A stretch of DNA of 64,000 nt from Sclerodactyla briareus (lineage: Eukaryota; Echinodermata; Holothuroidea; Dendrochirotida; Sclerodactylidae), in the NCBI GenBank assembly GCA_026419785.1, contig JAODTK010004332.1, positions 186,001 to 250,000 of the forward strand, read 5' to 3'. Both the position numbers and the translations under genes were made by a program. Shown one piece after another: positions 1,684 through 60,562 of this stretch (the first letter of the stretch is position 1; each line of letters opens with the position of its first letter). The notes below the pieces were generated by a model. The model saw only the letters and a list, made by a program, of their open reading frames with translations, made no database searches and was not told the DNA's origin.

Positions 1684-1734
<51 letters not shown>

Positions 1735-34223: not shown

Positions 34224-36350
34224 AATGTCGGGCTGTAAACCGCCAGACGAATATACCCCCGCATCTCTTATTAAAGAAATTTGATGAACATGAAACCGGC
34301 ACAATCTTCGTGTAAAGGAAGACATTATAGACTTGTGAAGTGCGCAACGTGTACTGGTAAATGGGTCCATTCCGCATAAATGCACTTGTTTAATTGTATA
34401 GGCAACCCGCTACAACAAGCCCCGGACAATGTGCGTCCCTAATAAGCACATTTATCAAGATTCGATCTCACATGGCCACCCGACAAGGTCAATCAGGTCA
34501 GAGTCACACACATCAGGTCCACATTATATCACAATGGTGAAACATCAGCCTTCGCAGATATTCAATTCTCCGATTATAGCCCGAAAACAGTTTTTGACAC
34601 CCTATGAGCCCTCGAATGACCTTTAATGATATGGCAGTTTTTATGAAAATTGTTGTTACTCTCCATGTATACATCCACTCTCTGAGCATTTTGCCTTCTG
34701 ATGAACACACCCAGTGCTATTGCCGAAAAAGTACTAAAATCAGTTTTGACCCAAGGTACCTTTATGACCTCAATGACATGGCGGTGTTTTATGAAATTGG
34801 TTACACTCCATGTGATGCAATCCACTCCAGACCATATTGCTTCGATAACATGTCAATGTTATTGTCGAAAAGTTATAAAATTGACTTTGACCCCTTGTAC
34901 TCCCAAGTAAGTATCCGATCGAAGCGGAAGTGTTTCTCTCCATAAAGCACATAAAGCTCAATCACATATCCAAAAATAAACCGTTTCTATTTTTTTGCCG
35001 CGTAACTCCTAAATAAGCACATTATTCAAGATTCGACCTTCACCCACATGACCACCCGACAAGGTCAAATTCAGGTCAAAAGTCACACACTCAGTCAACA
35101 ACTTATATCACAATGGTGAACCATCCACCCTCCGCAGATATTGAATTCTCCGATTATCGCCACACAAACAGTTTTTGACCCCTAAGTGACCCCAAATGAC
35201 CCTTTCATGATATACAGTTTTTATGAAAATTGTTTACTCTCCATGTGATACATCCACTCTAGGAGCATTTGCATTCTGATGAACCCACCCAGTGCTATTT
35301 GGCCGAAAAAGTACTAAAATCAGTTTTTTTGACCCCTAAGTGACCTTTAATGACCTTCAGTGACCATGGCGGTTTTTTTGTGAAATTTGTTTTTACCCAC
35401 TCCAGGTGATGCTCCACCCTAGACGCAATACTTGCATTCCATGACATGTTCCAATGTTTATGCGAAAAAAGTATTAACTCATCATTTTGACTGATCAGAC
35501 ACTTACTTGCAAATTTTCTCCACAATTACCCTCAGTTGATCTTATTGCTAATTGAATCAATTTGTATCAGGACTGGAGTAGGTCCCTATTCACAAAGTTT
35601 TTTTCGGCAAAAATCCCTAAACGTGAGAAATAACTGCAATTAATTTATTCTAATTATGCTAACGAATAGTTAAAATTAAGCACACATAATGACCTTCATG
35701 TTTAAAATGCAATTTGAATAAACTTTTTAACTCGTGACCTGTTTAGAAGGTCCCCTACTCACCGGAGTTGTTTCGTGAGAATCCAACGAAGTTTTTAAAT
35801 TTAACCTCATCGCTAATTGGGCCAACTATTATTCAAATAGTCATGCCAAGAGGAACCTCGGGTGACCTCGGCCACATTCGGAAAATTCATCGGCCACTGA
35901 AGTTTGGCCCCTAGTCACCAAGTTTTCCCATGAAAATCCCAGAAGTTTAAATCAACATCATTCTGCTGTAAATTAAGGGCTACTGGCCCAAAAAGAAATG
36001 CAAACTGACCTCGGATGACCCTTGAATTGTCCCACCATGTTTTTTTTCGGCTCAACAACTTACCCCCAACCCCACGTTTTCGTGTAAATCGCACGAACTG
36101 AAAATTTTTTGCGAAAAACCGCAAAATGCAAAAAAAAAAAAAGGGCAAACACATATACGATATAGCCCATTTTCGAACTTATCCGAGATTTTAACTCATA
36201 CGGACATGTGTACCAAGTGTTAGGTCTCGGATAAAGTGTTGAAGATGAGAGCGCTAACGCCTAAGTTTCCGGCGGCGCGGCGGCGGCGGAGACGGCGGGC
36301 ACACGGCCAAACCATAATATCCCCGACACTTACAGTGTTGTCGGATATAC
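34224..36350 (+). mobile_element. Hairpin-ended repeat family, copy 4 (long form, about 2 internal units)
   Basis: 5' end AATGTCGGGCTGTAAACCGCC, 3' end CATAATATCCCCGACACTTA followed by AGTGTTGTCGG. Terminal AAGTGTCGGG and CCCGACACTT are inverted, and the 3' end folds on itself (CCGACACT-TAC-AGTGTTGTCGG). Inside, a unit starting AAATAAGCAC occurs at 34441 and 35011 (about 570 bp), the second one shorter. A 3' region of about 850 bp, shared with 59745-60562, carries GACCTCGG, CATGTTTTTTTTCGGC, CGAACTTATCCGAGATTT and GGCGGCGGCGGAGACGGCGG. No transposase or Rep/helicase frame is visible. Confidence 0.85.
34441..35490 (+). repeat. Internal tandem units of copy 4
   Basis: Unit 1 34441-35010, unit 2 35011 to about 35490 (truncated). 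Shared order: AAATAAGCAC, TTCGACCT, ACATGRCCACCCGACAAGGT, CCTCCGCAGATATT, CCGATTAT, CAGTTTTTGAC, CCAGTGCTATT, CATGGCGG and a GCGAAAAAAGT end. Confidence 0.85.
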
Positions 36351-36835
36351 TTATCCTGAATAAGTCTCCTCAAAGCTGCAGTGTTCTGTCGTAGCGATGA
36401 TTATTACTGTCCTTGATTGCTTGTCATGTGCCAGTGTACATGGTGTAGGGATAGAACATTGGTACTGTTGTGACTGGATGATGAGTCTGCAAAGATAAAG
36501 TCTAAAACCTACCGGAGATAACGGCTTGGTAGTCGATATATACGAATGCATATTGCGAGTGCAGGATCGCGTTTGTCTAAATAAGATTGTGATCACTGTC
36601 ATGGCGTAAGAAGGTGAGGCTTCCGTAAAAAGGTTGGCATTAATTTGTCGAGTTTGCAGTTGGAGTGTATTGCAGTCCAGTTGCCCGGTGAAAGCGTAGG
36701 CACTGGAGTGAAGCGTTGATGTCCGAGCGTCATGAAACGGTGGCGTAGAGCTGATCCTGTTATGACTATGCCGGTAACGGTGCGATTCATGGTGCGGACC
36801 TATGGCAATCCGTTTTAACATTTTTTATTACCATT
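36351..36835. other. Unassigned spacer before the palindrome array
   Basis: Open on the - strand for 156 codons (36351-36821), but with no recognisable domain, and not matched elsewhere in the window. Confidence 0.3.
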
Positions 36836-37572
36836 TATGATATCACCAATTATTTGATGATATCATTAATGAACTGGGATATCACCCAATATTTGATGAT
36901 ATCACTAATATTTGATGATATCATATGTTCGGTGATATCACCTAATTATTTAATGATATCACCAATTCATTTTGATGAGATCCACCAATTCAATATGATA
37001 TCACCAATTCAATTACTGATATCATTAAATAATTGGTGATATCATCAAATAATTAGTGATATTATTAAATAATTTGAATGTTCGTAATGAATAGTGATAT
37101 CATTAATTGAATTGGTGAGATCTTAATTGATTTGATGATATCATCAATGCACTTGACGATACATTATTCCTTTGATGAGATCAGCAAAACAATTGCTGTG
37201 ATCAGTTACTTGGCGTATTAGTGATATCGAAAACAATGATATCACCAATTCATTTGAGATATCACATTCAATTGATGATCTCAGTTATAAAAACAAAAAT
37301 AATAAATGTAATTCATTTATTGATATCACTTAATATTTGATGATATCACCTAATTTTGATGATATCATCAAATATTTGGATGATATCAGTAATTGAATTG
37401 GTGCTATCATTAATTGAATTGGTGATATCATCAAATGAATTGGTGAATCATCAAATATTGGTGAATCACACCATTCTTAATGATATCAACAAATATTTGG
37501 TGATATCATCAAATAATTGGTGATATCACCAATACCAATTAATGATATCATCCAATATTGGTATATTCATCA
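36836..37572. repeat. TGATATCA palindrome tandem array
   Basis: About 740 bp in which the palindrome TGATATCA (often shortened to GATATCA or mutated) recurs every 16-22 bp. AT-rich linkers of two kinds separate the cores: ATTATTTGA-like and ATTGAATTGG-like. The linkers themselves are partly palindromic (CAATTCAATTAC, AATTGAATTGG), so either strand reads alike. No gene. Confidence 0.93.
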
Positions 37573-38164
37573 CATAGCGACTAAAATAAAACTGCTTGCC
37601 ATACGGCCGCTTATTCCGGTCCCTGTGGCTCAAGGAGGCGAGGAACGCGAGAGAGTTTGTTCACTTGAGCGTGGCAGGATGAATGCTTGCAGTGAGGGTG
37701 TAAAATTCAGGATGAATGTAGCTAGAATAGTTCAACACTCTGTGGCAGTATGGTGAAGGTTGTTTACCTGTCGCATTGCAGTGAGTCGCAAGCAATAAGC
37801 CGTTATCAGGACACTGTACTTCGGTGGAGATGTCGCTGAACGGCAAGCGAAGCCGAGAATGTAGCGCAAAAGCAATGATGTGATTCAGCTAATTAACGGA
37901 TAATAACAGACCCCTTAGGAATGGATATGTGTATTGAATGCTTGAATATCTGGCAGATCGTCGTCCGATCATGTCGACCAGATGGAAATAATAGCGTCCC
38001 ATTCCCTGTCCGTCGTTGCCGGGGACGGGTCCACTGGAGAATTATTCTTGGAGTTCCAGATTGCAATGCATTGTCAAGAGTCGGAAGTTGCTACCCATCC
38101 TCAATTAATCAGGTCCCTCCCACGAGAAATACAAATGGAGACTGATATAATAGCTAACTAAACA
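37573..38164. other. Unassigned region
   Basis: No gene recognised. Open frames at 37661-37846 (-) and 37921-38145 (+) lack domains. Confidence 0.35.
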
Positions 38165-38640
38165 CGTGCAGGGGGTAAACGCGGCCCGACGTGTATATCT
38201 TCACAGGAACTACCTTTGTAGACTTCATTAGAAAAATCATGTCCATTTGACCTCCAGTGAATTTAAAATAAGACCTGTTGTTCAGGACCGACTACCGTCC
38301 ACATCTCTATTTCGCCGAAGAATCGCAACTTGGCCTCGGTTACCTTCAAGTTTTTTCGTGACCAACGTTTGTCCCCATCCACAAGTGTCGTGGCAAACTG
38401 ACGGCAGCATAACTGGCATCAACTTGCAGCAATGCTCCTTTCAAACTCATCCAGATTTTACTAGGCGGACATGTGTACCAGTTTTGAATCACTTCGGAGT
38501 AAACGTTAAAAACTTCTTGCGCTAACGCCCAAAGTCTCCAGCGGCGGAGGAGACGGGCGGCCAATCGATGGCGGGACGGCTGCGGTGGGCGAACACAGCC
38601 CCAACCATAATATTTTCACACTTACATGCCTCAAGGATAA
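38165..38640 (+). mobile_element. Hairpin-ended repeat family, copy 5 (short form)
   Basis: Starts CGTGCAGGGGGTAAACGCGG, has TCCATTTGACCTCCAGTGAA, GTCCACATCTC, CCACAAGTGTCGTG, CAAACTCATCCAGATTTTAC, GGCGGCGGAGGAGACGGGCGG and ends CCATAATATTTTCACACTTA. About 475 bp. Confidence 0.75.
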
Positions 38641-38654
38641 ATTGGGGGGAAACT

Positions 38655-38960
38655 GAATGTGTCGGTCCAAACCCGAACGTTCATACGACTCTCTCCGTTA
38701 CTGGTTAAGAGAAATAGGCAAGATCGGGAAGGTTCCCATCAAGCAAAATAAATGATGTCATACTTTACACAACCCTGCAAATATTATTTACATTCACTGA
38801 AATGTACACATTGATCTCACCTAGAAAGGATGATGAGTCTATAGGGGGGGGGGGGGGGTTGCTGAAGTAGGTTGAAGGTGCTGATGGGGACTGTTGTGAG
38901 AGGAAGATAGTGAAGCATCTGCGGAATGTTGAATTGTTTAACACAATCAAACATAAAATC
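38655..38960 (+). repeat. Dispersed family R, copy 1 (partial)
   Basis: Shares ACTGAATGTGTCGGTCCAA, GTTCATACGACT, CAAGATCG, AAATGATGTCATA and CACAACCCTGC with 54170-54480 and 61680-61990. Interrupted by poly(G) at 38845-38858. Confidence 0.6.
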
Positions 38961-39025
38961 ATTCGGATGTTGTTCGCAGATGATGCATTATTGCCCAATA
39001 GGAACTCATAATTTCTCAGCATAAG
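38935..39025 (+). pseudogene. Possible reverse-transcriptase FADD fragment
   Basis: HKIIRMLFADDALLPNRNS reads like the catalytic box of a non-LTR reverse transcriptase (xxLLFADDxxLL), but no further domain follows in any frame. It may be a small relic or a chance match. Confidence 0.25.
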
Positions 39026-39029
39026 GACC

Positions 39030-40222
39030 TTGAAGGTCATATCTTCTAAAAGGACACCGTATGGAATTTTCTTAGGGTTTGGGGCATGTATTCCCGCGAT
39101 ATTGCCTTTGCTGTGTCTTCAATCATTCTGCCCAGAACCCAAGAAATCGCCACAGTTTCATCAAGGTTAATTCACCAGAATAGTGGCGCATGTTCGGGGC
39201 CCTCAGTCGAAAACCTTACGGCCAAATTACTGAAGTCTCGGATTTCTGGGTACCTAGGCCTCAAATCCTACCGCAATTATTCATACAAAAAAATCGTCAT
39301 CCCACACAGAATCACAAGATTAGAAGAGATTAATTTGTATGATGAGGTAAAGGGCTATGATCTCTAGCATCTCATGAATAAGTACGTCTAATGCCTCATG
39401 AGCCAGATGTTCCATAGGATCAATTTGCTGTAATGAGCCATCGATCACATTTGTTCATATGGTCGCCGACTCCGTGTTTTCGTTTCATTTCATTCGGATT
39501 ATGACCTTTTTGCAGTGCGGGACTTTTAATTGCAGCAGAATTAGACACTTCCCATGCGGTTTGGCACTGCCGCAATTTTGCATCCCGCATCTATGGAATC
39601 CTGACCTTATGCCTACTTTTAAAAAAAGAAAGTCTGCACACCAGTTAATCACCAGCAGCCCTGTTTTCGATACGCGCTTATAGAAGAATGCCGTTGTCTA
39701 TATTCAAACGAGTGTATCGTTGTGAGTCGGTCGGTACCTTGAATCGTCCCTGGGCTGTTGGATTAGAATAACAGCAATCATCCACAGATAGTGAACGTAA
39801 TGCGTGCAAAAACAACAATTTTCGTGACTAATTAAGAAACAATTCTGTCAAATGATTTCCGATTGTTCCAAAAAATAACACAAGCGAATTGTATTTGTAA
39901 ACGCTACTAGGCGAATACACTCATCTAGTAAAACTCTCACCCAACGCATCCACCCCCCCTGGATACGTTCCTGGAAACACTGAAAACACTCCACTCAACT
40001 TATTGAATCATATCCGTCACCACAATAACAACCAGCATACCTCTTTTTTTCTAATTTGGGTGTTTTGTAATTCTATGGAGCCCATTATTCCAGTACTTCA
40101 TGTTATACTGTATTCTTCACGAGGGACCCAAAATAGGCATTTCTGTGAAAGAGGCTATATAGTTGTGGTAATTAGTTTCATTTCTTAAAATCCAATCACA
40201 TACGCGAGAAAAACCCAAACTT
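39030..40222. other. Unassigned region
   Basis: Open frame 39086-39367 (93 codons) has no recognised domain. No repeats seen. Confidence 0.3.
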
Positions 40223-40477
40223 GCCTTGCCCACAGCGAGCCGCATACCTTCCCGTCGATTTTTCGACCTGATAGCAATGGTGCTACGATTCAGAGGTTAT
40301 GAACGAACCGTGTTTACGAGTGACTGGAAGGCTCGCTCAAGATACTCCTCTGATGGCCCAGGCCGCAACGATAAAGAAGATTACACATTTGAATTCATGG
40401 GGAACGAAAACACGGGAAGGATCAGTCGGGTGCGTAGCTCGCTCATCTATGACGTTTCTCATCGTTCTTTAGGTTGA
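40222..40477 (+). other. Open frame upstream of a long poly(A), unrecognised
   Basis: Eighty-odd codons open after a plausible acceptor, CTTGCCTTGCCCACAG at 40206-40221. Residues include GYERTVFTSDW and NDKEDYTFEFMGNENTGRIS. It ends about 50 bp before a 51-base poly(A). It could be an exon or the 3' end of a retroposed sequence; I do not recognise the protein. Confidence 0.22.
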
Positions 40478-40524
40478 CTCTACCAGCATTTTCAAAATTC
40501 ATCCGCCGAATGGTTCTCATAAAG

Positions 40525-40575
<51 letters not shown>
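40525..40575. repeat. Poly(A), 51 bases
   Basis: An uninterrupted A run preceded by TTCTCATAAAG. No AATAAA within 30 bp upstream. It could be the tail of a retroposed sequence or a slippage-grown homopolymer. Confidence 0.9.
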
Positions 40576-40579
<4 letters not shown>

Positions 40580-40959
40580 GTCCGTATAACATTTTGGGTC
40601 CAACTGACCGCTTTGTGGGACCCAGACATGCGGATTTACTCAGCCTCTCTGAAAACGGGTTATGAAAGTACGAACGCCGATAATTTCAGTTAGAATAGGT
40701 CCACTATTAACTATTCTAAAATATTTATAGACTGAAATAGGCTTGGTAGCTGCGGACGGCAAAAATTACTGTGCGAATACACTGCATGTTCTTCACCCAT
40801 CAACATTTATGGTTTGTCCACTTTTAATTGACCTTTACTGACATCTGTCATAAACATGGAATGGCTTGGAACAGGTTACCACATTGGCCAATAGTTTGAT
40901 ATCAGTGCCCAGCACAAAACCCAACTTGAATAAGTACTAGTAATGTATATTGCTATATG

Positions 40960-41370
40960 TTATGCAACAAAACTCAATATGTGTAAACAACTTTTGGAGG
41001 GTCAACTAGCTGCAGACCTGGACCTCTGACAGATAAGGTAAAACACCTGCTATACAGAGGAATAGAGTAATGTAAACGAACCTCTCTCACAGTCAGAGAG
41101 CTCAATGGAAGTTGGGATACTTGGGGTAATTTAATTGGATTTAATCAAAAACTAATAACACTCGCGAACATTAAATGTAGCTCAGCCTAGCCCGTGCGAG
41201 CTTCATCCACCTACCAAGGTTCAACTGATCGCATGTACGGTTTGAGTTATGAATGAACGTGAGAACAGACCGGACGAACTAACGAAAGAACGCACGATAG
41301 GACAAACGAACGAACGCCCGGACGGAAGGACAGATACTTGTAAGAGCTGCTCTCCCGCAGCATAAAATGA
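40960..41370 (-). repeat. Dispersed family C, copy 1 (- orientation)
   Basis: Reverse complement aligns with 45335-45740: TTCGTTCGT-rich segment, CATAACTC, ACATGCGATC, GTTGAACCTTGG, GATGAAGCT, GCTACATT, GAGCTC, GTGTTTTACCTTA, CAGGAGGTCCA-like and TAGTTGAC. About 400 bp each. Confidence 0.75.
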
Positions 41371-42629
41371 AACTCCTAGTGGCTTCAAAATCTTAACCAT
41401 GGGACATCGAAAGCACATCGTTGGAAGTGACGACTCTCTGCTCGCATCAGTGGCGAACAATTTTCAAGTCAAACTTTATGGGAGGCGCTGGATGGCCAAG
41501 AAACGGACTTCTTTAGACATCAATGAGCCCAATTCACCGCCGGGGCGACTAAGCGGAACGGAAATTCTGTACGCGGCAAGGTCCGCGAAAGTAGGGCAGG
41601 CGCGTCTCTCTCGAAACGTTCCGTTCCTTTTGAGATGAATCAGTTGTATCTTTTTATGGCGGTGACAGCGGACCGCATTGGGCTTTTATGGAAGGCCAAA
41701 GAGGAAATTAACAATTGAACTCACATTAAGGGAATGAAAAAAAAAGATGCAGTACATTGGTGGGTGATTAGGCGAAATAATAACAAAACTTTGTTGAAGT
41801 CATTCGGCCCGTTATTGTTGTCCTCCTGTCCAACCACGGAGCCTGGCTACCCATACCGTAGTAATCTATTATATTGACTGATATAAAAACTAGAATTGAA
41901 AAAAAAAACGTTGAAACGATAGTAATTAGTTTAAATCGTAATTCCGTGGCGATACGAATATATTCGTTACGACACCGCCAGACTTACCGGCAGTGACGTA
42001 TGAACTGGGCTTAAGACACCTAGCTGTTCTTCTGTAGGTCGATTACATACCGCTGGAACCAGCTGGAATTCGCTTCTATAAAGAGTATGCATCCGGCGGG
42101 GCATACTGGAATCAATCCATTTGGAATAATTTTTTTAGACAGTAATCAAGATTTTTTATTGATCAATCGCGCGTTTCGAGTTGCATCCTTAGTGCCTCCT
42201 AAAGCTTCTGGAACTATGCATATTATGAGCCAACCAAGATGGCCCTGGAGATATTTGATGAAGACATGGAAAAAAAAAATCTGAAGTAGAACAGGAGGTT
42301 ATGTGATACCATGCCCCTCGTCAGGAAGAACATAAATTCTAACATGTCTCCCTCCCCTACTTAGACTACTAGACTCGCGATCTAGAATGGCACGATAGAA
42401 AAACTGTTCTTGCGCATCCTGAGAAACTCATGAAACCGGCAAAGAAAATCACAAAGACGACTATATATAATCGATGCTACGGCCCTCATAAAAAATAAAC
42501 AGGGGGCGATCGAACCTTGCAGCAGATAGCCCATCACATATTCCACGTGTCTTCTTGCACCCGGTTCACGAAAATGGATCAGCTTACAGTGTTTTCTCTC
42601 CTGAACAAACGTTTCAGTCGAGGATTCCA
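41371..42629. other. Unassigned region
   Basis: No gene recognised; short open frames at 41399-41638 and 42087-42284 have no domain. Confidence 0.35.
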
Positions 42630-43010
42630 TAGGTGTGTATGCGTGTCGGGCTGGATATGAAAATCACATATTTACGAAGGAACGTTTTGGACAGAAGAGA
42701 ACTACAGAAAGTTATGCCAAAAGTACCATAACAATTCAGCAGCCCATGCATATTGTCGTTACTTGGCTATTTAAGGAAGATATTTCTATAATGCAGTCCG
42801 CCGGGTACGCATCCGTATAAGCTTTGGTACATGTGCCTTTAATTTCGCCTATTCAGTGTTGGTTTGCCTTCATATATAATTGTTTTGTTTCCGTGGAACC
42901 ATAGCGATCTTTGGCAAACTAAATAGGACATATTCAGGCACTGGCCCCTGCTCAGTTCACAGGAATTGGCAATTTTTCACTTGCGTACCGGACCCGCATA
43001 CCATCTATGA
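42630..43010 (+). repeat. Dispersed repeat with conserved frame, copy 2
   Basis: Opposite-orientation partner of 23420-23805. One + frame reads KSHIYEGTFWTEEN, then NNSAAHAYCRYLAI, a TAA, then GRYFYN, in line with the other copy's KSH, EEN, AAHAYRRSLALRGRY. It ends with TGCGTACCGGACCCGCATA at 42982-43000. Confidence 0.5.
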
Positions 43011-43990
43011 CCCAGTTTGACCGCGGGCTCCGGGAGAGCCGCGGACGATGGACTAGTTTTCGCGAGATCGTTCTGCACAATGTTCGGGCCACGTACGTCC
43101 GGATGCTGGCGTAATCTGAATGAACATTGCAATTACGCCAGGACACTGTAGCTGCGAACGGGTTTGACAGATTTTGTAATTGACCATGGTAGCCACAATT
43201 AGTTTTTTTTTTTTTTGAGGGGGGGGCAGCAGATTAAGGTAAATATTTCGAGCGCTGACTGCAATAAAACGGAAACATTGAATTAATTCTAAAGTGGTCG
43301 CTCAGTTGCTGATCATAGAGCGTAGCAAGAATCATGGAACAACGAAACTGTCTGGTGGGATAGCGCACGAGGCTACGCACTTTAACGATGAGCTTACCAG
43401 GCGGTTCTGAACTCGGAATAAGCAGGAACGGCAGCGCGTACTGAGAGATTTGTCTTATGGGGGGTTTTGAGGGGGTTTTGAGGTCGTGAGGGAATGCGGC
43501 CTCATACATGGCCTCACCCTCCCTATGGCCAATAGGTACAATTTATGGGCCCCTAGACACAAATGTTAGTCCTTGTTCAATACGCCGTGAACTGTACTCA
43601 ATTTTGCGCTTCTCACATATCTAAGGGTCCCCTAATCCCTTGCACATTACTGTTCCAGATATGTTTCTCGCCACGGAGTCTTGTAGGAATGTTCGGGCAG
43701 GTGTCTAATGCATCTGCCATACTGTATCCCGCACCTAAACGTTAGAAAATGCTGAGTTTTTAGTCGAAATGGTCAATTTTTTTAGGCCTACTGAACGAAA
43801 AGTTGGCGACGTGGGTATCAGTGACGCTTCGCGAGGACATTCCGAGTTCGAGTTTCCAGCGTTCAATCTTCGGCTGGCTGTGAACATTCACGTTGGACAT
43901 GATCAGCGCTCTTCCTCGATGCCAGTTCAGCTCTAATCAAAAGAGAAGGCAGTTGGCCACAAACCTCACGGCCAGGGTTCCTTTATAAGC
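43011..43990. other. Unassigned region
   Basis: Holds a T tract then G tract at 43203-43227. No gene recognised. Confidence 0.35.
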
Positions 43991-44252
43991 CTTAATTGGG
44001 CATCCCGGGCCCCCGTAGAAATCGAATCGAACCAAGAACCAGACGTTCGTAGACGAACTGGGCATCAATCTTCTGACTCAGCATGTGACGGCCCCATAGG
44101 GTAAGACCATCTGACGGAGGACACCTCGTATACTCTGATCCTCTCCCCCTCCCAACTATTCGAAACGGAATACGCGCCACTGGGGTAGAGCATCTGAACG
44201 GAGGACAGACTAGAGGGATCCTGGTGAGGTTTGACCCGGCACATCCGATCTG
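43985..44252 (-). other. Possible exon on the - strand
   Basis: A strong acceptor, TCATGGTTTTGTTTCAG, precedes 44252 on the - strand. Two frames are open for 60-85 codons, one reading PHQDPSSLSSVQMLYPSG and SWEGERIRVYEVSSVRWSYP. No donor is obvious and the domain is not recognised. Confidence 0.22.
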
Positions 44253-48954: not shown

Positions 48955-49008
48955 TTAATATTATATAATTAATATAATTATTATAATATTATTATTATTA
49001 TTATTATG

Positions 49009-49045
<37 letters not shown>

Positions 49046-49112
49046 TAGTATTATTATTATTATTATTATCATTATTATTATTATTATTATATTATATTAG
49101 TATTCTTATGTA
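48955..49112 (-). repeat. ATT microsatellite forming a retrotransposon tail
   Basis: ATT repeats (TAA on the - strand), broken by GATT and TAGT. It lies directly 3' of a - strand reverse-transcriptase C terminus, as expected for a non-LTR element with a simple-repeat tail. Confidence 0.9.
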
Positions 49113-49740: not shown

Positions 49741-50609
49741 TTTGTAATAACATTAAATAGGGAAACACAAGCCAGCGCCGTACAAACGGATAGACTGGAC
49801 GCCGTTTGTTAGGGAGGACTGTCCGTTGTTAAACTATACCACTCGCCGTATTAAAACTGCCAGTTATACTAGGTTATCGAACAGAGGAAGTGTCACTCAG
49901 CCGACGTCACTCGGCGTATACTCAGACAGGAGATGAAGTCTAATGTAAAGAGGAAAGGAGCCTATACCTTATAGCTGACTGCCTGGCAGCAGCCCCTGCG
50001 CAAGGAAACGCCGAGCTTAGACTCCCCCTCCCCTATACCTCAGCGGAGTGTTTGGTTAGGCTTCCGCTCGATAGGATGTTAGTCATTCTCTTCGCACGTT
50101 AGGCTGCTCTAGGCACCATTATTAATAGGCCGCTATTGCTAGCACAGACACTGACGCTGAAACAGTGGTATCAACGAATTTCATCTTCAGAAAGGATAGT
50201 CAAGTCTTACCCTTTTGGAATCCTATCTGAAAATGCCTCAAAATAATTTCGGATCAGAAGGAATTATGTGATGTATCCGTATTCCCGTATTTCAGAGAGT
50301 TCATGAACATTTCTATTTTTGTTCTGTGGATTAGTGGAAACTGAGACTTTCCATTCAAAATCTTTCATGCTGAAGGTTAGAAGAATCGCAATTCGAAGGA
50401 AGTGAATTGAACGGATTATATCTCGGTAGTATACACCACGTATTCCTATTTTGACAGGATAATCGAGAATATATTTTAAGAGGCGGAGGATGGGATTTTT
50501 TCCCTTCGTAATATGGGTAGTCACTTCACCTATGTTTCTGTCATCGTGTGCAGTTGACGCGATTGGTAAGTGCCTACTTGCCACATACACACTGTACTTG
50601 GCAATATAA
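49741..50609. other. Unassigned region
   Basis: The - strand is open from 50677 to 50264 (137 codons), but the frame starts inside a SINE-like unit and has no recognised domain. Confidence 0.3.
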
Positions 50610-50690
50610 TTATCGTGGTGTAGCCTATATAGCAAGCGGTAACTTTCGTGATCCGAAGATCGCGGTTTCGCGCCCACTATGATTGGTTCT
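50610..50690 (+). repeat. tRNA-derived SINE head
   Basis: TCGTGGTGTAGCCTATATAG resembles an A box context. CTTTCGTGATCCGAAGATCG resembles an anticodon arm, and CGGTTTCGCGCCCAC a B box with one extra T. The layout matches a tRNA in reading order. Confidence 0.5.
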
Positions 50691-50859
50691 TGGGCATGGC
50701 GGGTTTACCCTCGATTACTTTACTCAGATAAAAATTAGGGAACCTGTGGATACTTGACTGATTTACGGTAACTGTAGGCGTGTCAGGTTATATGGCCAGA
50801 GTTAAAAACGTAAATCGACCTTAGAGGGCCAATGATTGTGTCGGGTATATGAAGGACAA

Positions 50860-51110
50860 CTGCAGAGCTTGGATACAACAGAGGTCATACGTGAAAATGG
50901 AAAACTGTATATATAGGTCCAAACCCCATTTCAATACGATGTTCCAGTGGAGTTATTGGACGGTCAAATTGGGTCCATTCGGGAAGAAAGAATGGGGGAG
51001 AATTCCAATGCCCACGCAATTTAAAGCACATGAACATGGACAACCCGGGAAGTTATGTCATGTATCTCATTTTTCATTTTGTTGAATAAGTCAACATTTA
51101 GCAGAAATTC
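50860..51110 (-). repeat. Dispersed family R, copy 2 (- orientation)
   Basis: Matches the reverse complement of 54470-54690: GGTCCAAACCCCATT, GGGAGAATTCCAATGC, GGACAACCCGGGAAG and GTTGAATAAGTCAACATTT. Confidence 0.65.
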
Positions 51111-52293
51111 GTTGTCTTTCTCTCACCAACGTAACCAACAAAACCTACCAACCCAATACAACAATCCTTGAAATTTGTGAATTCAATGGAAAACAAGATT
51201 ATTCGCAGGGTTGTGCAAGTATGACATCAATTACGTATTGCATGATGGGATCTTTTTCGATCCTTTGCAATACACAAGGACAAACTTCAAAAGACTGTAA
51301 CTCCGTAAGGGAAAGTCGTACGAACTTCGGTTTCGACTGACGCATTCAGTGTTTCCGCCAGCTATCCTTCGCCTTTTTATAAGTCATCCTGCAGTTGTCC
51401 TTTAATTATACATCACGTACCGTAGGCTTATCACTCGAAGCTCGTCGTTTCAATGGCAATCGTAAATTTGTGGAGAATGGCGACCACATTCGGATTGGGA
51501 GAAGTTGGTGTCACGTCAAAAGAATCTGAACAAGCCCCTTAATAGAAAATTTCCTCAGAAAAAGACCACTTGCATTACAAAACGACATTTGGTGGGGCAT
51601 TGTTGACAGCCCGCGATTGGCGTATCCTATTATTTATATTATTTAGGCTCACACTCGGTGGCTAGGCAAGTAAGAGGCTGTGAGGAATTGCAAGAGGAGG
51701 AGGAACAACCGGGAGACGAAGAAGGATGACCGAAGAGAAAAGAGAGCTACGAGGAAGAAAGAAAAAACATTGAGAAGCAGGAAATTCCGTCCAGTGGCTA
51801 TGAACGGCAGGTTCAGTATAAGGTGATCTCGAAGATCAAGGAGAACAAAATATTTTATAACAACTCGTTCGTATGTTATCTGGAGATTACAGACATTTAT
51901 CTAGTCTAGCCAGGAAGTTCGGACATAGATCGGAAAAAAAGAGTTAACGAACCCATTGTATATAGGAGCGTGAATGTCTCTGTGGTTGTGAATCGAATTT
52001 ATAGTAGCTTTAACGAGGTCTAGGAAGTTGCACACGATCACTAATCATATTTAAATTAGAAGTGTCATGGGTTGCAAAAGAAGGGCACCCATATTTATAT
52101 TCGAATCAGTCCTATGGTCGTTTGAGGTGTTCGATGCTCACTATCTTGTTTTTATTTTCTAATGTAGCAGGAAGCAGACGATTAACAACACACCCTCGTG
52201 TTCTTGCATACCCTGTTGCTTTTGTATTATAATTATTCTATTTGTAAATCCACATTTACGAACATTTTTTAATTTCCTTCTGGTTTCATACGG
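51111..52293. other. Unassigned region
   Basis: No gene or known repeat seen. An A/G-rich purine stretch lies at 51680-51790. Confidence 0.35.
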
Positions 52294-52480
52294 CCAGTGG
52301 CGCGTTTGGTATATTATTGGGGGGAGGGGGGGGGGGGGTTCGAGCGCTTCGCGTCTCCTCCTAGGGGCACAGAGGGCCTCGCAACACTCACTCTCTGCTC
52401 TGCTGAGTGGGGGGGGGGTAATGATTTCCCCCACCAAAATTTTGGTTGAGGGGGGGGGATGTCTTCCCTCCCCCAGGATC
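52294..52480 (+). mobile_element. Isolated hAT-like terminus with G tracts
   Basis: CAGTGGCGCGTTTGGTATAT followed by three poly(G) tracts, like the ends at 29672 and 31196. No matching inverted end is found downstream, so this is a fragment or the partner is too diverged. Confidence 0.35.
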
Positions 52481-52764
52481 GCTGCAAATGTAATAAACGA
52501 CCGGGCAATCCCTCTAATGTATTTGGGGTGGTATTCACATCGCCTTTTGTACAAATCCAATCAATTATTCCCATTATTGTTTCTAAAGGTTGAAACTCGT
52601 GCAATTTTTTCTCCAACGGTTGTTCCGTAGCGTTGAATATACCCCCCCCCCTTCCAAGGGCAGACCTTCCTCCTTCGAAATTTCAAATGTCTGTCGAAAG
52701 ACCACTGCTCAAAAATCCAGTTGTATTGTATAAAGCTGTATTTTTTATGGTATACTTGCCGAGC

Positions 52765-52865
52765 AGAAGGATCGAACCTACTCAATATATACCGGCAACG
52801 GTGCACTACTGGATAATTGCCAGCTGGCGAATTCCTTCACTAACTACACGGAATAAGGCACGTGA
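52765..52865 (-). repeat. Possible tRNA-derived SINE head
   Basis: On the - strand GGTTCGATCCTTCTG fits a B box, and GTGTAGTTAGTGAAGG upstream weakly resembles an A box, but they are spaced about 70 bp apart, longer than in a tRNA. Confidence 0.3.
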
Positions 52866-54169
52866 CCTTCTTTTTGGCGGTACTTAATGTGGGAGTGGGG
52901 GGGGGGGGTGCGGGGTAATACACACTCAGAAGGCAACTTGCAAATTGGCAAATTGCCTACCTCTCGTTTGTCCCTGCTCGTTCATCCCCTTGTGCTGAGC
53001 GTACATGAGAAAGGCACAACTTACCATGTTGCTGGTTATATTCCTCATCTAAGATATGACTGTGGTTGATGTCCTATATACAACGGAGATGCTTATTATA
53101 ACGGACAGGCCCGCCGGTACATGATGTACATGGGACTTATATACAAACTACTCTAAGAGATAAAATGGAGTGTTCGACTTATTCTTAACCTTACTAACCA
53201 GACTACAGTACCTCATAAACCGTGCAATGTTTAACTGCGAGAACGCGACACACCACCTCAGAAGGTGAGTGGCAGAACGAGGAAACCAAAAGTGAAGTGT
53301 TATGTGTATAGATGTGACTGCAGGATAAATGTGGTTTCAAACGGGGGGCAAATCATACAATATTTCCTTAAGACAGAACATTGAAGTTCGTGCATTGTAC
53401 TATGCAATTTGGTGAAAACACACCGTCCATGCAACTCTGACTGGTTGCCAAACCTGTGCAGATTTAATTTGTTTACTTTCGAAATTAGTACTTCACCGGG
53501 GAAAAATGTCTTTAAGAGAGGTTTGGTGAGAAAATAGGTGCTGACAACCAGCCCACCGAGATTAAGGTTTTGCGATTATTTACCGTGGACAGTATGTATC
53601 CTAACATAATAGTGATACTAACATACATTCGTATTAAACGCAGACATTTAGTCTACTTATGTAGGACCAAGGTTTCGCGAATATTCACCATAAGAAATAA
53701 CCATCAATACATATTAGTAAAAGGTACCCCATGTGTTAAATACCTGTGTTATTTATGTACCATGTCCTCATATTATTGCACAGTTGGGTCTCTCTGACTA
53801 ACGAGGGCATACACATGGGGCCTAACAACAGAATCGATGACTCCGCAAATACATATTGTATGGAGTTGGGGGTTGGATCTGAGAGACGAGTTCCTCATTT
53901 GCCCCTTTTTTTTATTTTCTAATATAGATAATACCTGTCAATTTGATAGAGTTTGTTTCCATTTTATGAGACTCTACACACCAATGATTTCCATAATCAC
54001 ATTTTTTCCTGTGAGTCATTGAGTGCCAATATACGAGAGGGTGATTAGGCTCGATCTTGTTTCCAATGTCAACAATGAAAACCTAACGTCTATTCATCAG
54101 AGTTCTATAAACTTTGGGATTAAATCACTAATTCCCCCTCAAATGACAACTGTCAGATGAACATGAAGA
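52866..54169. other. Unassigned region
   Basis: Poly(G) at 52896-52907. No gene recognised. Confidence 0.35.
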
Positions 54170-54850
54170 GGTGAATATATTAGCTGGAGAAGAACTGAAT
54201 GCGTCATCCAAGCCCGAAGTTCATACGACTTCCTCTGAAGTTTGTGCATGCGCATTGCGCAAGATCGAAACAGCATCCCTCTCTGCAATGATAAATGATG
54301 TCATAATTGCACAACCCGGCGAACAATCTTTGTTTTTCAATGAATTCACACATTGTTTTCACTTCGAAAGCATTGATCTATGGGAGAGGATCGCTGTAGT
54401 CGGTTGGTAGTTTGATGGTTACTCTGGTGAGGGGAAGATAATAGAACTTCTGCCAATGTTGACTTATCAACAACATTAAACAATTAATACAACCTAACTC
54501 AAAAAAAAAAAAAGAAAAACCCCCCCCCCAAGGTTGTCCAATTGTGAGGTCATGCGTTTTATGCGCATTGGGATTCTCCCAATTTCTCTGCATAATAGAC
54601 CAAATTTTGAAGACAATACTCCACATGAGGAACGTTTTGGAATGGGGTTTGGACGTATAGATCCAGTTTTCCGTTTTCCACAATATGTTGAATGCAAGCC
54701 TGCAGTTTGCTCTTTGATCGTGCTTCACATCGAGTCCCCATCGTGGCACCAATGCATAAACAATGATAGTCTCGGACCGGGTACATAAAAAAGTCGTTTC
54801 GTTTGAGTGAATTTTCGCTGTATTCTCGGTATTATGGCACATTGTATAGG
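54170..54850 (+). repeat. Dispersed family R, copy 3
   Basis: Longest copy of the family: GTTCATACGACTTCC, GCGCAAGATCGAAA, AAATGATGTCATA, TTCACACATTGTTTTCACTTCG, CTATGGGAGAGGA, TGTTGACTTATC, GGTTGTCCAATTGTGA. It contains an A-rich and C-rich stretch at 54500-54530. Also matches 61680-62075. Confidence 0.7.
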
Positions 54851-55514
54851 AATGACTAGGATCATGTATATTCCTCCAGTTTTTTATTGGTTCATTGGGG
54901 GTCTCTGACGTGATCTATACACTTCATCATGCGTTATCTGCTTCCGTGTGTAACGACGCTTATTGGTTTCCATTCTTGGTGGCGATTTGAACGCAATTCA
55001 TATGAAGAGTTTTACTCTGAGATCGGAATGTCTCCGGTAAACCATTTTTCGGACCACAGTACCCCGTTTTGGGGGCAAAAAGTATTTCAGCATTTCCTGA
55101 CGGGGGGGGGGGGACTTCTTTTCAACTGTCCAATGAAAGGCTAACGATGCAGATGCCCCGATCTGACAATATTATCTTTATTAATAATATTTTGAGAGCT
55201 TGGTCTTTTTTAGTATAAGGATATCCGGGGAATTTTTAATCCAAGTATAATGGATATTCACCGTATGAAAGTGGATATTCAAACATATTCAATGAATCTC
55301 ACTTTCACGGGATGGGGGGGGGGGAATTGAAGATTGTCTACAGGCTGATTGCATCCCTTCAGTTGAGGATTGTGACAGAGGTTGAGCCTAAATGCGGACA
55401 TGGTAGTCGAGTTTTTACGCAAGAGGTGTCCGTAGGTGCAAGTTTGCAACCTGTATACGCGCTACCGGTTAGGTTACACGTTAAAAACGCCATCTTATCA
55501 ATCTGGTCTCCCAG
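54851..55514. other. Unassigned spacer / putative intron
   Basis: Poly(G) tracts at 55101-55111 and 55315-55323. It ends in the acceptor of the Ig-like exon (TCTGGTCTCCCAG at 55502-55514). Confidence 0.4.
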
Positions 55515-55780
55515 CAATCACAGATTTTCACGCGACGTCCATCCCGAACCTCAACACGACCGTCCCGCTGAGATGTACGGTACTGGGGCCCAGGGACGTG
55601 CTATCACGTCACCTCCGACGGAGTCCGGACACATCTATCTCCGGTGGAGGCGGTATTCGAGCCAAGTAACCAATCGTCGAATGCGATATTCCATGTTATT
55701 CCGAGCGGGCCTGTGACTCGACTCAGGTGTTCAGCAAGTTGGGAATGAGACGACCGAACGGATCTGACGCTCATTCCTCG
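55515..55780 (+). CDS. Exon of a receptor-like gene, probable Ig-like domain
   Basis: A 266-bp segment between acceptor TCTGGTCTCCCAG and donor CATTCCTCG/GTAAGAC. It reads SIPNLNTTVPLRCTVLGP (an Ig B strand with its cysteine), then after frame changes HIYLRWRRYSS (a C-strand-like tryptophan) and NAIFHVIPSGPVTRLRCSAS (a second cysteine strand). Two frame changes are needed. It lies 1.45 kb upstream of an FN3 exon on the same strand, so both probably belong to one cell-surface protein. The fold call is inferred from Cys/Trp spacing and is uncertain. Confidence 0.42.
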
Positions 55781-57234
55781 GTAAGACAGCAGTGAAGGTC
55801 CTATCCTTCTTTTGAAATTCTTTGCGACCATGCAGACAACTCCCGGCAAATACACTCCACTCTGTTGTGTTTTTTTTTTTCTCTCTGGCGTGTTCCCAAC
55901 CAGGTCCTTGGTGTAGTGTCAATTTGTGTGTGTGTGTGTCCAGCGTTGGTGATACGTGTGCAATGTGGGCGTGACATTGAGGGTAGAGAGTTTCAGCACG
56001 GACGGAATCCGGCACGTACCATTTTTGTATATAACGACTGTCGTTGAAGTATATACGTCTTCCAAACAACGTGTATAATGTAGGGACCGTATACCATACG
56101 CTACACTAAAACTGACGAAGAGCGCTGCAATGTTTAAAGAGACATCGTCGCCCTGCAGCGATTTGGCGAAAAGCGAGGGCAGCGTGCGCATGACGTCACG
56201 ATGAAAAGTTGTCTCCTCGCGATCCTTTATGGCTCACGTATATCGTCGATAGGGGAAATGCAGTATAAATATTGAGTGTTGATGGCACCGAGGGGCTGGA
56301 TTTATCGTCATCACGCCCCAGAAAGCATCACTGGTCCATTTTCTTGTCGGGTCCCTCCGAGACATACCAGGTACTGCAAACCTCAATAGATATTCAAGCA
56401 TAAAACCAATCCGACGATAGGCTTGTTATGAATATCGCAATCCAAATGATGGGTGGGCTATTGGGAAGCGGGTGGCCTAATGAAAAGTCAAGGAACAGTA
56501 GAGTTAAAGGATAACTGGACCACTCTGAAATGTTGTGCTCATACTTCGTATGCATTCTTCTCAGGGTAACACTGACCCTAGTGTGTTTTATGTCAAGTCC
56601 AAGGTCCTCCGAGGTCAAAACAGTTAGGAAGTCGTTGTGAACCACACGTTAATTTAACAAGTCACAAATGCAACGGTCTAATCAGCGTGTATTTCGCCTG
56701 AGGGTTTAGCCTGTTATCACAGTAACGTGAACAGGTCCATGTGAACGAAGCTCATACTTGGTATGTATGTTACCTAACGGGTACATGAATTCCTTTGTTT
56801 TGGGTCCAGGGTCAAAGGTCCGTGTGTTCAAAGTTGAAATTTATTGTTAACACGATAAGTCTACCCATTGGATATTTGCTTGGCTTCAGGATTTAACATT
56901 TGGTGGGTCAGGGCAAACCTATGATTATGTGACCGTCGAGGGATCAATGTTCCGATGTTACTCATGATTTTTACCTTGTCGTGTTTCATGTGCACAACCT
57001 GGAACACCAGATAAGATATCTACACGTTAATTATGTCTCAATCAAACGAGCGATCCTGCGTTCACTAGCGGTTTGTGGGGTTCACGCCGCCCGCGCGGAG
57101 GTTCATTCGTGTCCTGTATTGCGCCTCAAATTACGGGGTTTGGGGGACCCCATGAACACCAGTGAAGTAAATTTAATTGAATCGCGACTTGGCAAAACAC
57201 TTATGTTGTTTTTCTAACTCATTTTCCCTTTCAG
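55781..57234 (+). other. Putative intron between the Ig-like and FN3 exons
   Basis: Starts GTAAGAC and ends TTTTCCCTTTCAG. It holds a T/C tract near 55868 and a short GT run at 55924-55938. A possible further donor CCAG/GTACTG at 56371 follows an open stretch without a recognised domain. Confidence 0.45.
56740..56960 (+). repeat. Dispersed copy of the 250-bp repeat
   Basis: Shares GAAGCTCATACTTGGTATGTATGTTACC, TTGTTTTGGGTCCAGGGTC and AACACGATAAGTC with the 6333-6990 array. The longest quoted parts are given as landmarks only; the copy is single. Confidence 0.6.
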
Positions 57235-57539
57235 TTCACCTTCCTTACTGACCCACCATGGGTCACAGAGACACGTAGCACGGATGCGTCAGTTTCGTGG
57301 GATCAATGGATGATACCCTACAACTCGGGGATGGTCCCGCATATACAGTACATCCTCAAGTACATGTATCTTGGGGAAACCGATCCATCTATACCCCCGC
57401 CTGTTGGGACCGACCAATAATCTTCAATCCTGAAGGGACTGCGGCCTCGCAAGGACCTCCGAGCCTTCGTCCTCTGCCTACGACCTGGTCCCAACGGCAT
57501 GGGCGGATAGTCCTCTGAACCTTCGCGACGCATGTCCAG
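57235..57539 (+). CDS. Exon encoding a fibronectin type III domain (receptor-like gene)
   Basis: A 305-bp exon with consensus acceptor (TTTTCCCTTTCAG) and donor (CATGTCCAG/GTGAGC). It opens FTFLTDPPWVTETRSTDASV and SWDQW (the FN3 B-strand tryptophan), then HIQYILKYMYLG (C strand). After one frame change near 57415 it reads LKGLRPRKDLRAFVLCLRPG, PNGMG and SEPSRRM, the LxPxTxYxFxVxxxRPGxxGxGxxS pattern. FN3 repeats with RPGxxGxG occur in animal receptors such as Tie-type tyrosine kinases, but no kinase exon is visible, so the parent gene is not named. Together with the Ig-like exon at 55515 it implies a type I surface protein running on the + strand. Confidence 0.75.
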
Positions 57540-57823
57540 GTGAGCGTTCTTGTCCGAAAATTACTCGTGACCTCCTATACAACAGCAATTCACAATCTTC
57601 CCATTTGAGTTTCCTAAACAATAACCTCACTGCCTCTCCGGGATGATAAACATTATGACATTGTAATAAGCATATTCACACTGGCTGTACGTACGCATGC
57701 TCAACCACTAAACAGCTCGGGAAAATAGTAGTAGTGGAACATTATACAGCACCAGTAATAACAAAATACACACTTTGCTAACACAAACCTAAGTATACTT
57801 GGAGAAAGCCAGTTAAAACTAGA

Positions 57824-60562
57824 AAGTGTCGGGCGGGTAAACCGCCAGAACGTATATATCCCCGCATCTCTATTCAAGAAATTTGGTGGAACATGAACCG
57901 ACATATTCTTGGGAAGAAGACATTCATAGACTTGTGCAGCGACCACGTGTACAGGTAATGTGGTCATTCATAATGCACTTGTTAATTGTTGAGGCACCCC
58001 TAAGCCACGGACAAGGTGCGTCCTGAAATAACACCATTTTATCAAGATTCGACCTTTAATTTAACCACATGGCCACGCCGACAGAGGTCAAATTCATCAG
58101 TCAGAGGTCACACACATGCAGGTCAACAATTATATCACACAATGGTGACCATCCAGCCTTCGCAGATATTAAATCTCGCGATTATAGCCAAAAAACAGTT
58201 TTGACCCCTAAGTGACCTCGAATGACCTTTATGATATGACAGTTTTAATGAAAATTGTTACTCTCATGTGATACATCCACTCCTAGGAGCATTTTGCATT
58301 CTGATGAACCCAACCCAGTGGCTATTATTTGCCGAACAAGACTAAAAATCAGTTTTTGACCCGCTAATTGACCTTTAATGACCGCTTCAATGTACATGGC
58401 GGTTTTTATGGAAACTTGTTACAACCCCATGGCTGCATCCACTCCTAGAAGCCTCTTTCATTCCAAGGAACATGTCCAATGTTATTGCGAAAACGGTATA
58501 AAATTGAACTTTGACCCCTTCTGTACTAGGCAAAGTCAGTGTCCGTCGAAGTCGGGAAGTTGTTTCCCTCATAAAGCACACAAACTCGTTATCACCTTCC
58601 CAAAACTACCAGTTTCTTTTTGTTTGCCCGTAACTCTCAAATAAGCAACATTTATTCAGATTCGACCTTAACCACATGACCACCCACAGAGATTTCAAAT
58701 TCAGGTCAGAGGTCACACACATGCAGGTCAACCCAATTAATCACAAGGGTTGAACCATCAAGCCTTCGCAGATATCATCTCCGAGTATAGCCAAAAAACA
58801 GTTTTTTGCCTCTAAGTGACCCCCCGATGCTTTTTAATGATATGGCCAGTTTCAGCAGAGAATTGTTACGTACCCCCGCCCACCACTGTGCTACTTCCAC
58901 TCTAGGAGATTTGGCATTCTGAGAACACACCAGTTGCTTATTGCCGAAAAAAAAAGTAGTAAAACAGTTTTGACCCCTAAGTGGACCTTTAATGACCTTC
59001 AATGACATGGCGGCTCTTATGAACAAACAAAATTGTCCACTCCGTGTGAGCATACACTCCTAGTCGCATATTGCATTCCAATGAATATGTTCAATGTTAT
59101 GCGAAAAGGTTTAAACTTGAACTTTGACCCCTTGTAACTAGCAAAGTAATTGTCCGATCAAAGTGGGAGTTGTTGCCCTCCATAACGCACACAAACTCTA
59201 TCACATATCCAAAAAAAACAGTTTCTATTTTTTTATGGCCCGTAACTCCTTAAATAAGCACCTTTATTTCAGATCGACTTCTAAGCCACATGACCACCGA
59301 AGAGGTCAATTACGGTCAGAGGTCACACCAATGCAGCTGGCAACAATTATACCCAATGGTGAACCATCCAGACTTCGCAAATATTCAATGCTCCGATTGT
59401 AGCCAAAAACCAGTTTTGGGACCCCTCTAAGGACCGAATGGACTTTAATGATATGACAGATTTTTATGAGAAGTGTTACTCTCCATGTGCTACAACCACT
59501 CCTAGGAGCATTTTGCATTTGATGAACACACCCAGTGCTATTGCCGAAAAATACTAAAATCCGTTTTTGACCCCTAAGTGCCTTATAATGACCTTCAATG
59601 ACATGGCGGTTTTTTTTTGGGGGGGGGGGTATGAAATTGTCACTCCATGTTGATGCATCACCTTCCTAGAAGCATCTGCCTTCCCAATGAACATGTCTAT
59701 GTTTATGCGAAAAAAGTCTTAACTCAGCATTTGACTGATCAGGACAACACTAATATACAAATTAGTCCCCACAAATTTTACCTCAGGATCTGATGCTCTT
59801 GATAACTTTATCAGGCCTGGTAGTATCTCCTTTTCACGAAGTTTCGTCAAATACCTAAAGTTGAGAAAAAATAATTGCATTATTATTCTAATTATACTAA
59901 CTAATATGTAAATTAACCACACATAATGACCTTCGTGATTCCACGCAATTGAAAACAATTTTCGGAACTTAAGGTAAGCCATACCAACCAAGTTTCGTTA
60001 GAATCCTACAAAGTTTTATAAATTTGCCTATTGCTAATTGGGCCAACTATTATGCAAATTAGTCATGCAGATGACCCTCCAGTGACCTCGGCACATTGAA
60101 AATTCATCCGCACTGATAGTTGGCCCTATTCACCAAGTTTCATCATAAAATCCATGAAGTTTGAAATATCCCATACATTAGGCTATAATTAGGCTACTGG
60201 CCAAATAAATTCAAACTTGACCTCGATTGACCTTGAAATTGCAGCCATGTTTTTCGGCTCCAACAACAACACCCCAACCACCACGGTTCGTGTAAATCGC
60301 ACGAACGTGAAATTTTGTGCGAAAAACCGCGAAAATAGAGGGCAACGATATAGGATATAGCCCATTTTTCGAACTTATCCATCCGAGATTTACTCATACG
60401 GACAATGTGTACCATTTTTTGGTCAATCGGATAGAGTGTTGAAGAAGGCGCGCTAACGCCTAAGTTTCCGGCGGCGGCGGCGGCGGGCGGCGGAGACGGC
60501 GGGCACCCGGCCGAAACCATAATATCCACCCCGAACACTTACAGTGTTGGCTGGGATATAAT
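57824..60562 (+). mobile_element. Hairpin-ended repeat family, copy 6 (long form, 3 internal units)
   Basis: 5' end AAGTGTCGGGCGGGTAAACC continuing to GCC, which itself folds (GGCGG-GTAAA-CCGCC). 3' end ATATCC, CCGAACACTTACAGTGTTGG, GGGATATA, which is inverted to the start and self-complementary. Three internal units begin at 58026, 58639 and 59252 (613 bp each; the last truncated at about 59745), against two in copy 4. The shared 3' region contains the GC-rich GGCGGCGGCGGCGGGCGGCG block at 60470. About 2.7 kb with no protein frame. Confidence 0.87.
58026..59745 (+). repeat. Internal tandem units of copy 6
   Basis: Units 58026-58638, 58639-59251 and 59252-59745. Each carries TTCGACCTTTAA-like, CCACATGGCCACG-like, CTTCGCAGATATT, GCATTCTGATGAAC, CCAGTGGCTATT-like, ACATGGCGG and TGACCCCTT landmarks in the same order as in copy 4. 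Confidence 0.85.

Follow-up and report, generated by a model that had tools for sequence, protein, structure and literature searches.

A dispersed non-coding element family of Sclerodactyla briareus with a tandem array between proto-Helentron-type ends

According to PMC4067079, canonical Helitrons begin with a 5' TC and finish with a 3' CTRR, carry a palindrome about 11 bp before that end and show A|T insertion. The same paper describes a proto-Helentron of Phytophthora infestans, with a 5' TT, a 3' CTAG, A|T insertion and no target duplication. For oyster repeats, PMC12628747 and PMC7492417 describe passage between transposon-borne and standalone arrays. Here, we analyse two long elements, A and B, in a 64,000-nucleotide stretch of DNA from the holothuroid Sclerodactyla briareus (GenBank assembly GCA_026419785.1, contig JAODTK010004332.1, positions 186,001 to 250,000 of the forward strand). 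This whole stretch is referred to as the window. A and B are probably copies of a non-autonomous rolling-circle family within the Helitron/Helentron group; the ends are of the proto-Helentron type, and mobilisation would be in trans, through a Rep/helicase.

Satellite-carrying non-autonomous Helitron/Helentron elements are already known, and the present family is a variant of that kind. Like the proto-Helentron of P. infestans (PMC4067079), the family has a 5' TT, a 3' CTAG, A|T insertion and no target duplication, a 2-bp TT duplication being ambiguous here. The P. infestans element, however, is a coding element of ~14 kb, whereas the present family is about 1-6 kb, non-coding and built around a satellite array. 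Like Cg_HINE of Crassostrea gigas, one of the Helentron-associated (HINE) elements, it is non-autonomous with fixed flanks and a variable central tandem array; a subterminal repeat and inverted repeat lie at one end, a subterminal repeat and palindrome at the other (PMC7492417). However, Cg_HINE has monomers of 138-181 bp, a left-flank microsatellite and TT/T-rich targets (PMC7492417), whereas the present unit, at ~593 bp, includes a nested duplication of 151 bp, and the target is AA^TDA. DINE-1/HINE elements of Drosophila and mite also have subterminal inverted repeats, a nested inverted repeat, a 3' palindrome and, in some copies, tandem repeats, but their targets are T-rich and their 3'-repeat spacing is different (PMC4067079). 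As with the oyster repeats (PMC12628747), related arrays also occur outside elements. Hence, the family joins ends described for a proto-Helentron to a satellite-carrying interior known from oyster HINEs.

Elements A and B and their family

A first-pass annotation of the window had proposed two elements with common ends, two and three internal units of about 570-615 bp, and a common 3' region of about 830 bp. Location and alignment of A and B bear this out. They align at 77-78% identity, in overlapping pieces along their length, and follow one plan, in which a tandem array is flanked by a left block of ~200 bp and a right block of ~830 bp (859 bp in A, 826 bp in B). There are two unit starts in A and three in B, and the full units measure 572, 613 and 613 bp. 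Bounds come from aligning 28 left ends and 26 right ends, and the features are as follows.

34218..36350, minus strand (inferred transposition orientation): element A, full copy with 1.8 units
57819..60561, minus strand (inferred orientation): element B, full copy with 2.9 units
34435..35491, no strand assigned: tandem array of A, unit starts at 34435 and 35007
58021..59735, no strand assigned: tandem array of B, unit starts at 58021, 58634 and 59247, final unit cut short at the usual point
59736..60561, no strand assigned: 3' block of B, common to A (35492-36350) and partly to shorter relatives
57819..57822, no strand assigned: CTAG terminus of B, preceded by host or ambiguous AA (CGAG at 34218-34221 in A)
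57832..57846, no strand assigned: hairpin GGCGG-GTAAA-CCGCC of B (on the minus strand GGCGG-TTTAC-CCGCC, 9 nt before CTAG)
57824..57833, plus strand: subterminal inverted repeat AAGTGTCGGG of B, its partner being the left arm of the 3' palindrome
60522..60559, no strand assigned: terminal palindrome of B (36317-36348 in A)

The short inverted ends and foldbacks of the first-pass annotation exist, but each quoted motif comes from a single copy. Thus, AAGTGTCGGG and GGCGG-GTAAA-CCGCC are exact in B, while A has AAATGTCGGG and GGCTG. Conversely, the 3' foldback CCGACACT-TAC-AGTGTTGTCGG is exact in A, and B carries CCCGAACACTTACAGTGTTGGCTGGG. The start coordinates also shift: the conserved left end, seen in 28 distinct left ends, lies a few bases further out, at the CTAG that follows AA.

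We searched the 319-Mb assembly (3171 contigs) for further copies. With A as the query there were 131 matches, the weakest at E 4.1e-6, from the 40 scored among 3551 first-look candidates. With either end as the query, all 40 scored candidates matched. The first look listed 796 candidates for the left end and 1567 for the right, as against 3551 for the element as a whole; with 40 scored per search, these are rough sizes. The matches indicate recurrence beyond chance. The longest open frame in the consensus of the tandem unit is 85 codons, and the unit is thus non-coding. We conclude that A and B are copies of one dispersed non-coding family.

Ends, target sites and Rep loci

The left end was derived from 28 distinct left ends (locus L006 was dropped as the same locus as L021) and the right end from 26. 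The left-end consensus is (A)AA|CTAGAAARTGTCGGGCGGGTAAACCGCCAGACGTATATATCCCCGCATCTC. By reading of the alignment, an exact CTAG is present in 21 of the 28; the other seven have CGAG (twice), CAAG (twice), CTAA, GCAG and ATAG. Among the 27 left ends that could be parsed, A occupies position -2 in 25 and position -1 in 24, as counted by a regular expression without AA that misplaced three ends (element B, L015 and L031). The right-end consensus is AAAACCATAATATCCCCGAACACTTACAGTGTTGCGGGGATATAA|TDA, where the palindrome is followed by ATATAA|TDA, with TDA in 18 of 22 ends.

Read on the minus strand, the consensus becomes A|TTATATCCCCGC ... GGCGG-TTTAC-CCGCC, nine bases, CTAG|TT. The element then starts A|TTATATCCCC, with the long terminal palindrome at the TT end. 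In this orientation 5' TT, 3' CTAG and an A|T target are all present, as in the proto-Helentron, the placement of TT being one of three equivalent readings. CTAG also conforms to the CTRR of canonical Helitrons, and its hairpin, weak on the minus strand, lies 9 nt away, compared with a palindrome about 11 bp away in those elements. The minus-strand orientation thus appears to fit the ends better, as 5'-TT...hairpin...CTAG-3' in an A|T target. Folding was done on typed consensus ends. The 3' palindrome is far more stable than its shuffles (z -7.3, 0 of 200 as good), while the plus-strand 5' hairpin gave z -2.6, with 3 of 200 shuffles as good.

Subterminal repeats are offset 5 nt and about 20 nt from the ends, and the palindrome is 2 nt from the 3' end. 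The order of parts is that of mite HINEs, but the spacing differs: in those elements the repeats lie 2-4 nt from the 5' end and 38-60 bp from the 3' end, and the palindrome lies 8-35 bp from the 3' end. The outermost bases, CTAGAAAGTG and TTATATCCCC read inward, are not inverted repeats. Hence, the non-offset terminal inverted repeats of a conventional transposon or miniature inverted-repeat transposable element (MITE) are absent, with a 2-bp target-site duplication still possible.

The target was examined in 22 hand-supplied flank pairs, with L015, L022, L027, L032 and other copies lacking two readable ends left out. Direct repeats of 3-9 bp were in no excess over shuffled pairings, and a target duplication of that size is therefore rejected. 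On the plus strand the target reads AA^TDA, and the flanks hold no T-rich tract, though TT stands at the junction. Since copies were located through a left motif containing AA and a right-end motif, AA in 22 of 22 and T after the right end hold by construction.

Two paralogous empty sites were found within the fetched DNA. The L005 site lies inside a satellite: the joined flanks, from which one T present in the homologous copies was omitted by hand, align across the junction to other satellite copies at 66-76%. For L024, the joined flanks match a second copy of the host repeat, about 0.5 kb away, in one alignment of 454 columns (72%) that runs through the junction. A third candidate, L027, sits inside a related element; its divergence was too great for an empty site to be recognised. 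TT (AA on the plus strand) occurs once in each empty site and at both ends of filled sites. Hence, A|T insertion, T|T insertion and a 2-bp TT duplication are equivalent readings. The first-pass annotation had named target duplications of 2-9 bp as evidence against a rolling-circle origin; those of 3-9 bp were not seen in the 22 copies, while a 2-bp TT/AA duplication is inseparable from a TT borne by the element. As a separate observation, the flank right of the L024 element contains a stretch that looks tRNA-like by eye (GGTTCGATTC box). It is perhaps a repeat of the short interspersed element type and adjoins the empty-site repeat.

The dinucleotide also bears on a cut-and-paste origin, in which the family would consist of MITEs or foldback elements whose internal repeats expand and whose target duplication is always the 2-bp TT/AA. 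Such an element would account for TT/AA at both ends when filled and once in the two empty sites, as well as for short inverted repeats near both ends, and MITEs with tandem cores are known (PMC12628747). The lack of inverted repeats in the outermost bases (CTAGAAAGTG against TTATATCCCC), the 5 and about 20 nt offsets and a hairpin of its own at each end, unlike a plain MITE, make this origin very improbable.

We also looked for an autonomous partner. A search with Pfam PF14214 (Rep domain) gave three matches at two loci. In a separate Pfam scan the first Rep, on C2413, was matched as two pieces (44.4 and 37.7 bits); the second Rep piece scored 16.5 bits, under the cut-off. The first reads FVRIEFQQRGSPHAH and the second FYRVEFQQ-stop-GSPHIH, where Helraiser has GLPHAH (a weak match, E 0.043). 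S in the GSPH position with F/Y-x-R before it is diagnostic of Helentrons, according to PMC4067079. By these residues, both Rep relics would fall in the Helentron clade. PF05970 (PIF1) gave one match above the cut-off (34.7 bits), with two stops in frame and no family ends within 1.5 kb. Near the Reps, BLAST of the ends returned only short, low-complexity-like matches (E 0.014-0.9), and no fuzzy match to hairpin or palindrome was seen near either. A possible endonuclease-like stretch after the C2413 Rep had no Pfam match in the two pieces scanned.

These relics are relevant to a further alternative, a non-autonomous family of canonical Helitrons (RepHel without Helentron features) that starts with TT by chance. 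The CTRR-type 3' end, the hairpin 9 nt upstream, the A|T target and the lack of a duplication of at least 3 bp are what such a family would have. The TT start in place of TC is not, and both relics, although unlinked to the family, carry S and F/Y-x-R where Helraiser, by the weak match above, has GLPH. We regard this origin as improbable.

The Helentron residues of the relics count in favour of true Helentron-associated HINEs, in plus orientation and inserted at T|T. The plus-strand layout would then be a 5' subterminal repeat with nested inverted repeat, the array, and a 3' subterminal repeat with palindrome. This matches the HINE and Cg_HINE plans (PMC4067079 and PMC7492417, respectively), and T|T insertion suits both empty sites as well as A|T does. 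The target, AA^TDA in flanks without a T-rich tract, counts against such elements. So does the 3' subterminal repeat, which is itself a palindrome arm and lies about 20 nt from the end, not 38-60 bp as in mite HINEs; CTAG and the hairpin nine bases away are also left unexplained. HINEs in this strict sense are unlikely, if slightly less so than canonical Helitrons. Accordingly, the HINE-like label of the first-pass annotation holds for the plus-strand layout of subterminal repeat, nested hairpin, array and 3' palindrome, but the ends fit the minus-strand reading better and the flanks of the target hold no T-rich tract.

Several points weigh against a rolling-circle family with proto-Helentron-type ends. 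On the minus strand the hairpin next to CTAG is weak (z -1.6), 12 of 200 shuffles folding equally well. The 5' TT, in the start TTATATCCCC, is not the TC of canonical Helitrons. Orientation on the minus strand is taken from the likeness of ends rather than from a coding direction, and the plus-strand reading also fits the HINE layout. A 2-bp TT/AA duplication is possible, being made less likely by the fixed dinucleotide. Family ends were not seen in ~12 kb around the C2413 Rep or ~11 kb around the second, and no autonomous element with family ends was found among the two Rep loci and the one PIF1 match; the C2413 Rep is also single-copy at the DNA level. The autonomous Rep/helicase with common ends sought by the first-pass annotation was thus not found near the two Rep loci, a weak test given noise and frameshifts. 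Coding searches are weak here because many stretches hold several percent indels. In sum, that annotation's proposal of rolling-circle-type non-autonomous elements gains support from the ends and the lack of a 3-9 bp duplication, but no autonomous partner was found near the Rep loci.

The expected course of transposition follows the general rolling-circle model for Helitrons. A Rep/helicase acting in trans would nick the TT end. Replication would then run from the TT end across the array as far as the CTAG hairpin; the strand displaced on the way would be inserted at an A|T site. The array would travel within the copy, whatever length the source had. Later, unequal exchange or slippage could change the number of units, as blocks of near-identical units suggest, and an array might occasionally escape as free satellite DNA. 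The general model is set out in part in PMC12628747.

The internal array inside and outside elements

The array was surveyed in 31 copies with an element end (25, plus L019, L028 and L043-L046); neither another copy in L022, which is truncated, nor an additional right end in L029 is counted. Because copies were picked from the best matches, and L043-L046 for their long arrays, the distribution of lengths is not a random sample. In 23 of the 31 the array is in phase at both junctions, with N full units and a fixed partial one (N=1 to 8). Eight copies have ~1.8 units, six have 2.8, two have 3.8, three have 4.8 and two have 5.8; single copies have 7.7 and 8.6. The last few of these lengths were computed from coordinates with a 597-bp divisor. 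The remaining eight copies (L013, L014, L016, L019, L022, L024, L028 and L044) have deletions, interruptions or rearrangements or are cut off. Consistent with the first-pass annotation, the array is variable, and its length is quantised in 23 of the 31 copies.

The unit measures 593 +/- 12 bp (48 units of 500-700 bp) and contains a 151-bp internal duplication with 84% identity. The listing of tandem repeats shows none in the left block of either A or B. One element, L016, shows a higher-order period of ~855 bp at 1015-3200, comprising the unit and 213 bp of right block, with two full periods.

Of 75 units, 26 have their closest counterpart within their own array, against 3.5 expected; shared local error or real homogenisation could each contribute to this excess. 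Near-identical units occur in L032 (four within 0.8-3.2%), L021 (2.9%), part of L044 (2.6%) and part of L030 (about 4%). Conversely, the arrays of L020, L043 and L045 are heterogeneous throughout, with 15-25% between neighbours. Some arrays hence look recently amplified in place, with units 0.8-4% apart. Inheritance of units by position (first with first, last with last between arrays) gave no signal, with 225 and 347 of 500 permutations as low. Near-identical units seem to sit at the left side of arrays, an impression from few arrays only.

Locus L041 is an array of about 8.5 units. As far as matches show, its limits differ from the element junctions, and neither element end was matched in the ~2 kb read on each side. 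Six units differ among themselves by 0.2-3.9%; a further unit stands 6.4-9.7% away from them, and another about 19% away from the unit beside it. The difference between units 1 and 4, and likewise between 2 and 5, is 0.2-0.3%, compared with 1.3-2% between neighbours; the pairing may be a sign of a three-unit duplication. At L042, both ends are absent by profile, a weak 49-bp right-block match (E 5e-4) lies alongside, and units are 4.8-26% apart. This locus may be a decayed element.

A tentative reading, to which we give somewhat less than an even chance, is that a recently active proto-Helentron-type lineage seeds a satellite, with arrays that expand in place by multi-unit duplications and escape as free homogenising arrays. 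The ~593-bp unit would then exist in a single genome as source, as intermediate and as satellite. Since the unit occurs both inside and outside elements, passage from transposon to satellite could be counted copy by copy.

Divergence between units was assessed for 85 units. The 25 closest to the consensus (<8% substitutions) have transition/transversion ratios of 1.11 (17 units) and 1.35 (8 units), while the other 60 are near random (0.64 and 0.62). The substitution level also jumps between neighbouring units of one copy, as in L007 (13.6, 12.5 and 2.9%). Clean and diverged units stand side by side at L007, L030, L041 and other loci, the substitution level shifting abruptly across about 600 bp of one contig. 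Assembly error probably accounts for much of the 10-15% spread, and misalignment and real age may contribute further. Against a simple error reading, the indel/substitution ratio is not higher in diverged units (0.50-0.52) than in the cleanest (0.62). We infer a true divergence of about 1.5-8% for the better units and hence a fairly young family. Because much of the divergence is probably assembly noise, ages are unreliable, and those read off copy divergence in this assembly would mislead.

Shorter relatives and neighbouring repeats

The window also holds four shorter relatives, all in the same direction.

14233..14768, minus strand: shorter relative with similar ends and a different interior, ends approximate
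38158..38632, minus strand: shorter relative with decayed right end, ends approximate
19467..20030, minus strand: shorter relative without right end, within a minisatellite
7395..9785, minus strand: shorter relative split by an insertion of ~1.7 kb (about 7556-9235)

Similar ends on shorter relatives with different interiors support the rolling-circle reading of A and B. In a profile scan the right ends score 65.5, 23.7 and 13.9 bits, against a best of 7.7 in shuffled windows, and the fourth is lost. The left ends score 8.9, 6.9, 6.4 and 4.8 bits, where the highest score among ten shuffled windows is 6.5; since these profile scores are weak, the left ends were called by alignment.

An Rfam scan of the window found no family at its gathering score. 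The ~1.7-kb insertion at 7556-9235 has inverted ends (CAGGCGGCGAT / ATCGCCGCCG) and resembles a cut-and-paste element of hAT-like type. The truncated relative at 19467..20030 is hosted by a degenerate minisatellite at 18900-20300 (CACTGATCGCGACACAGGCGAGAC...), and similar sequence flanks L016 by eye. Just right of A, at 36794-37610, is a self-complementary satellite of ~20-bp units with TGATATCA, palindromic over ~800 bp. Finally, a large direct duplication occupies 426-3252, where 426-1709 and 1938-3252 are 79% alike, with TG/TATG repeats at its end.

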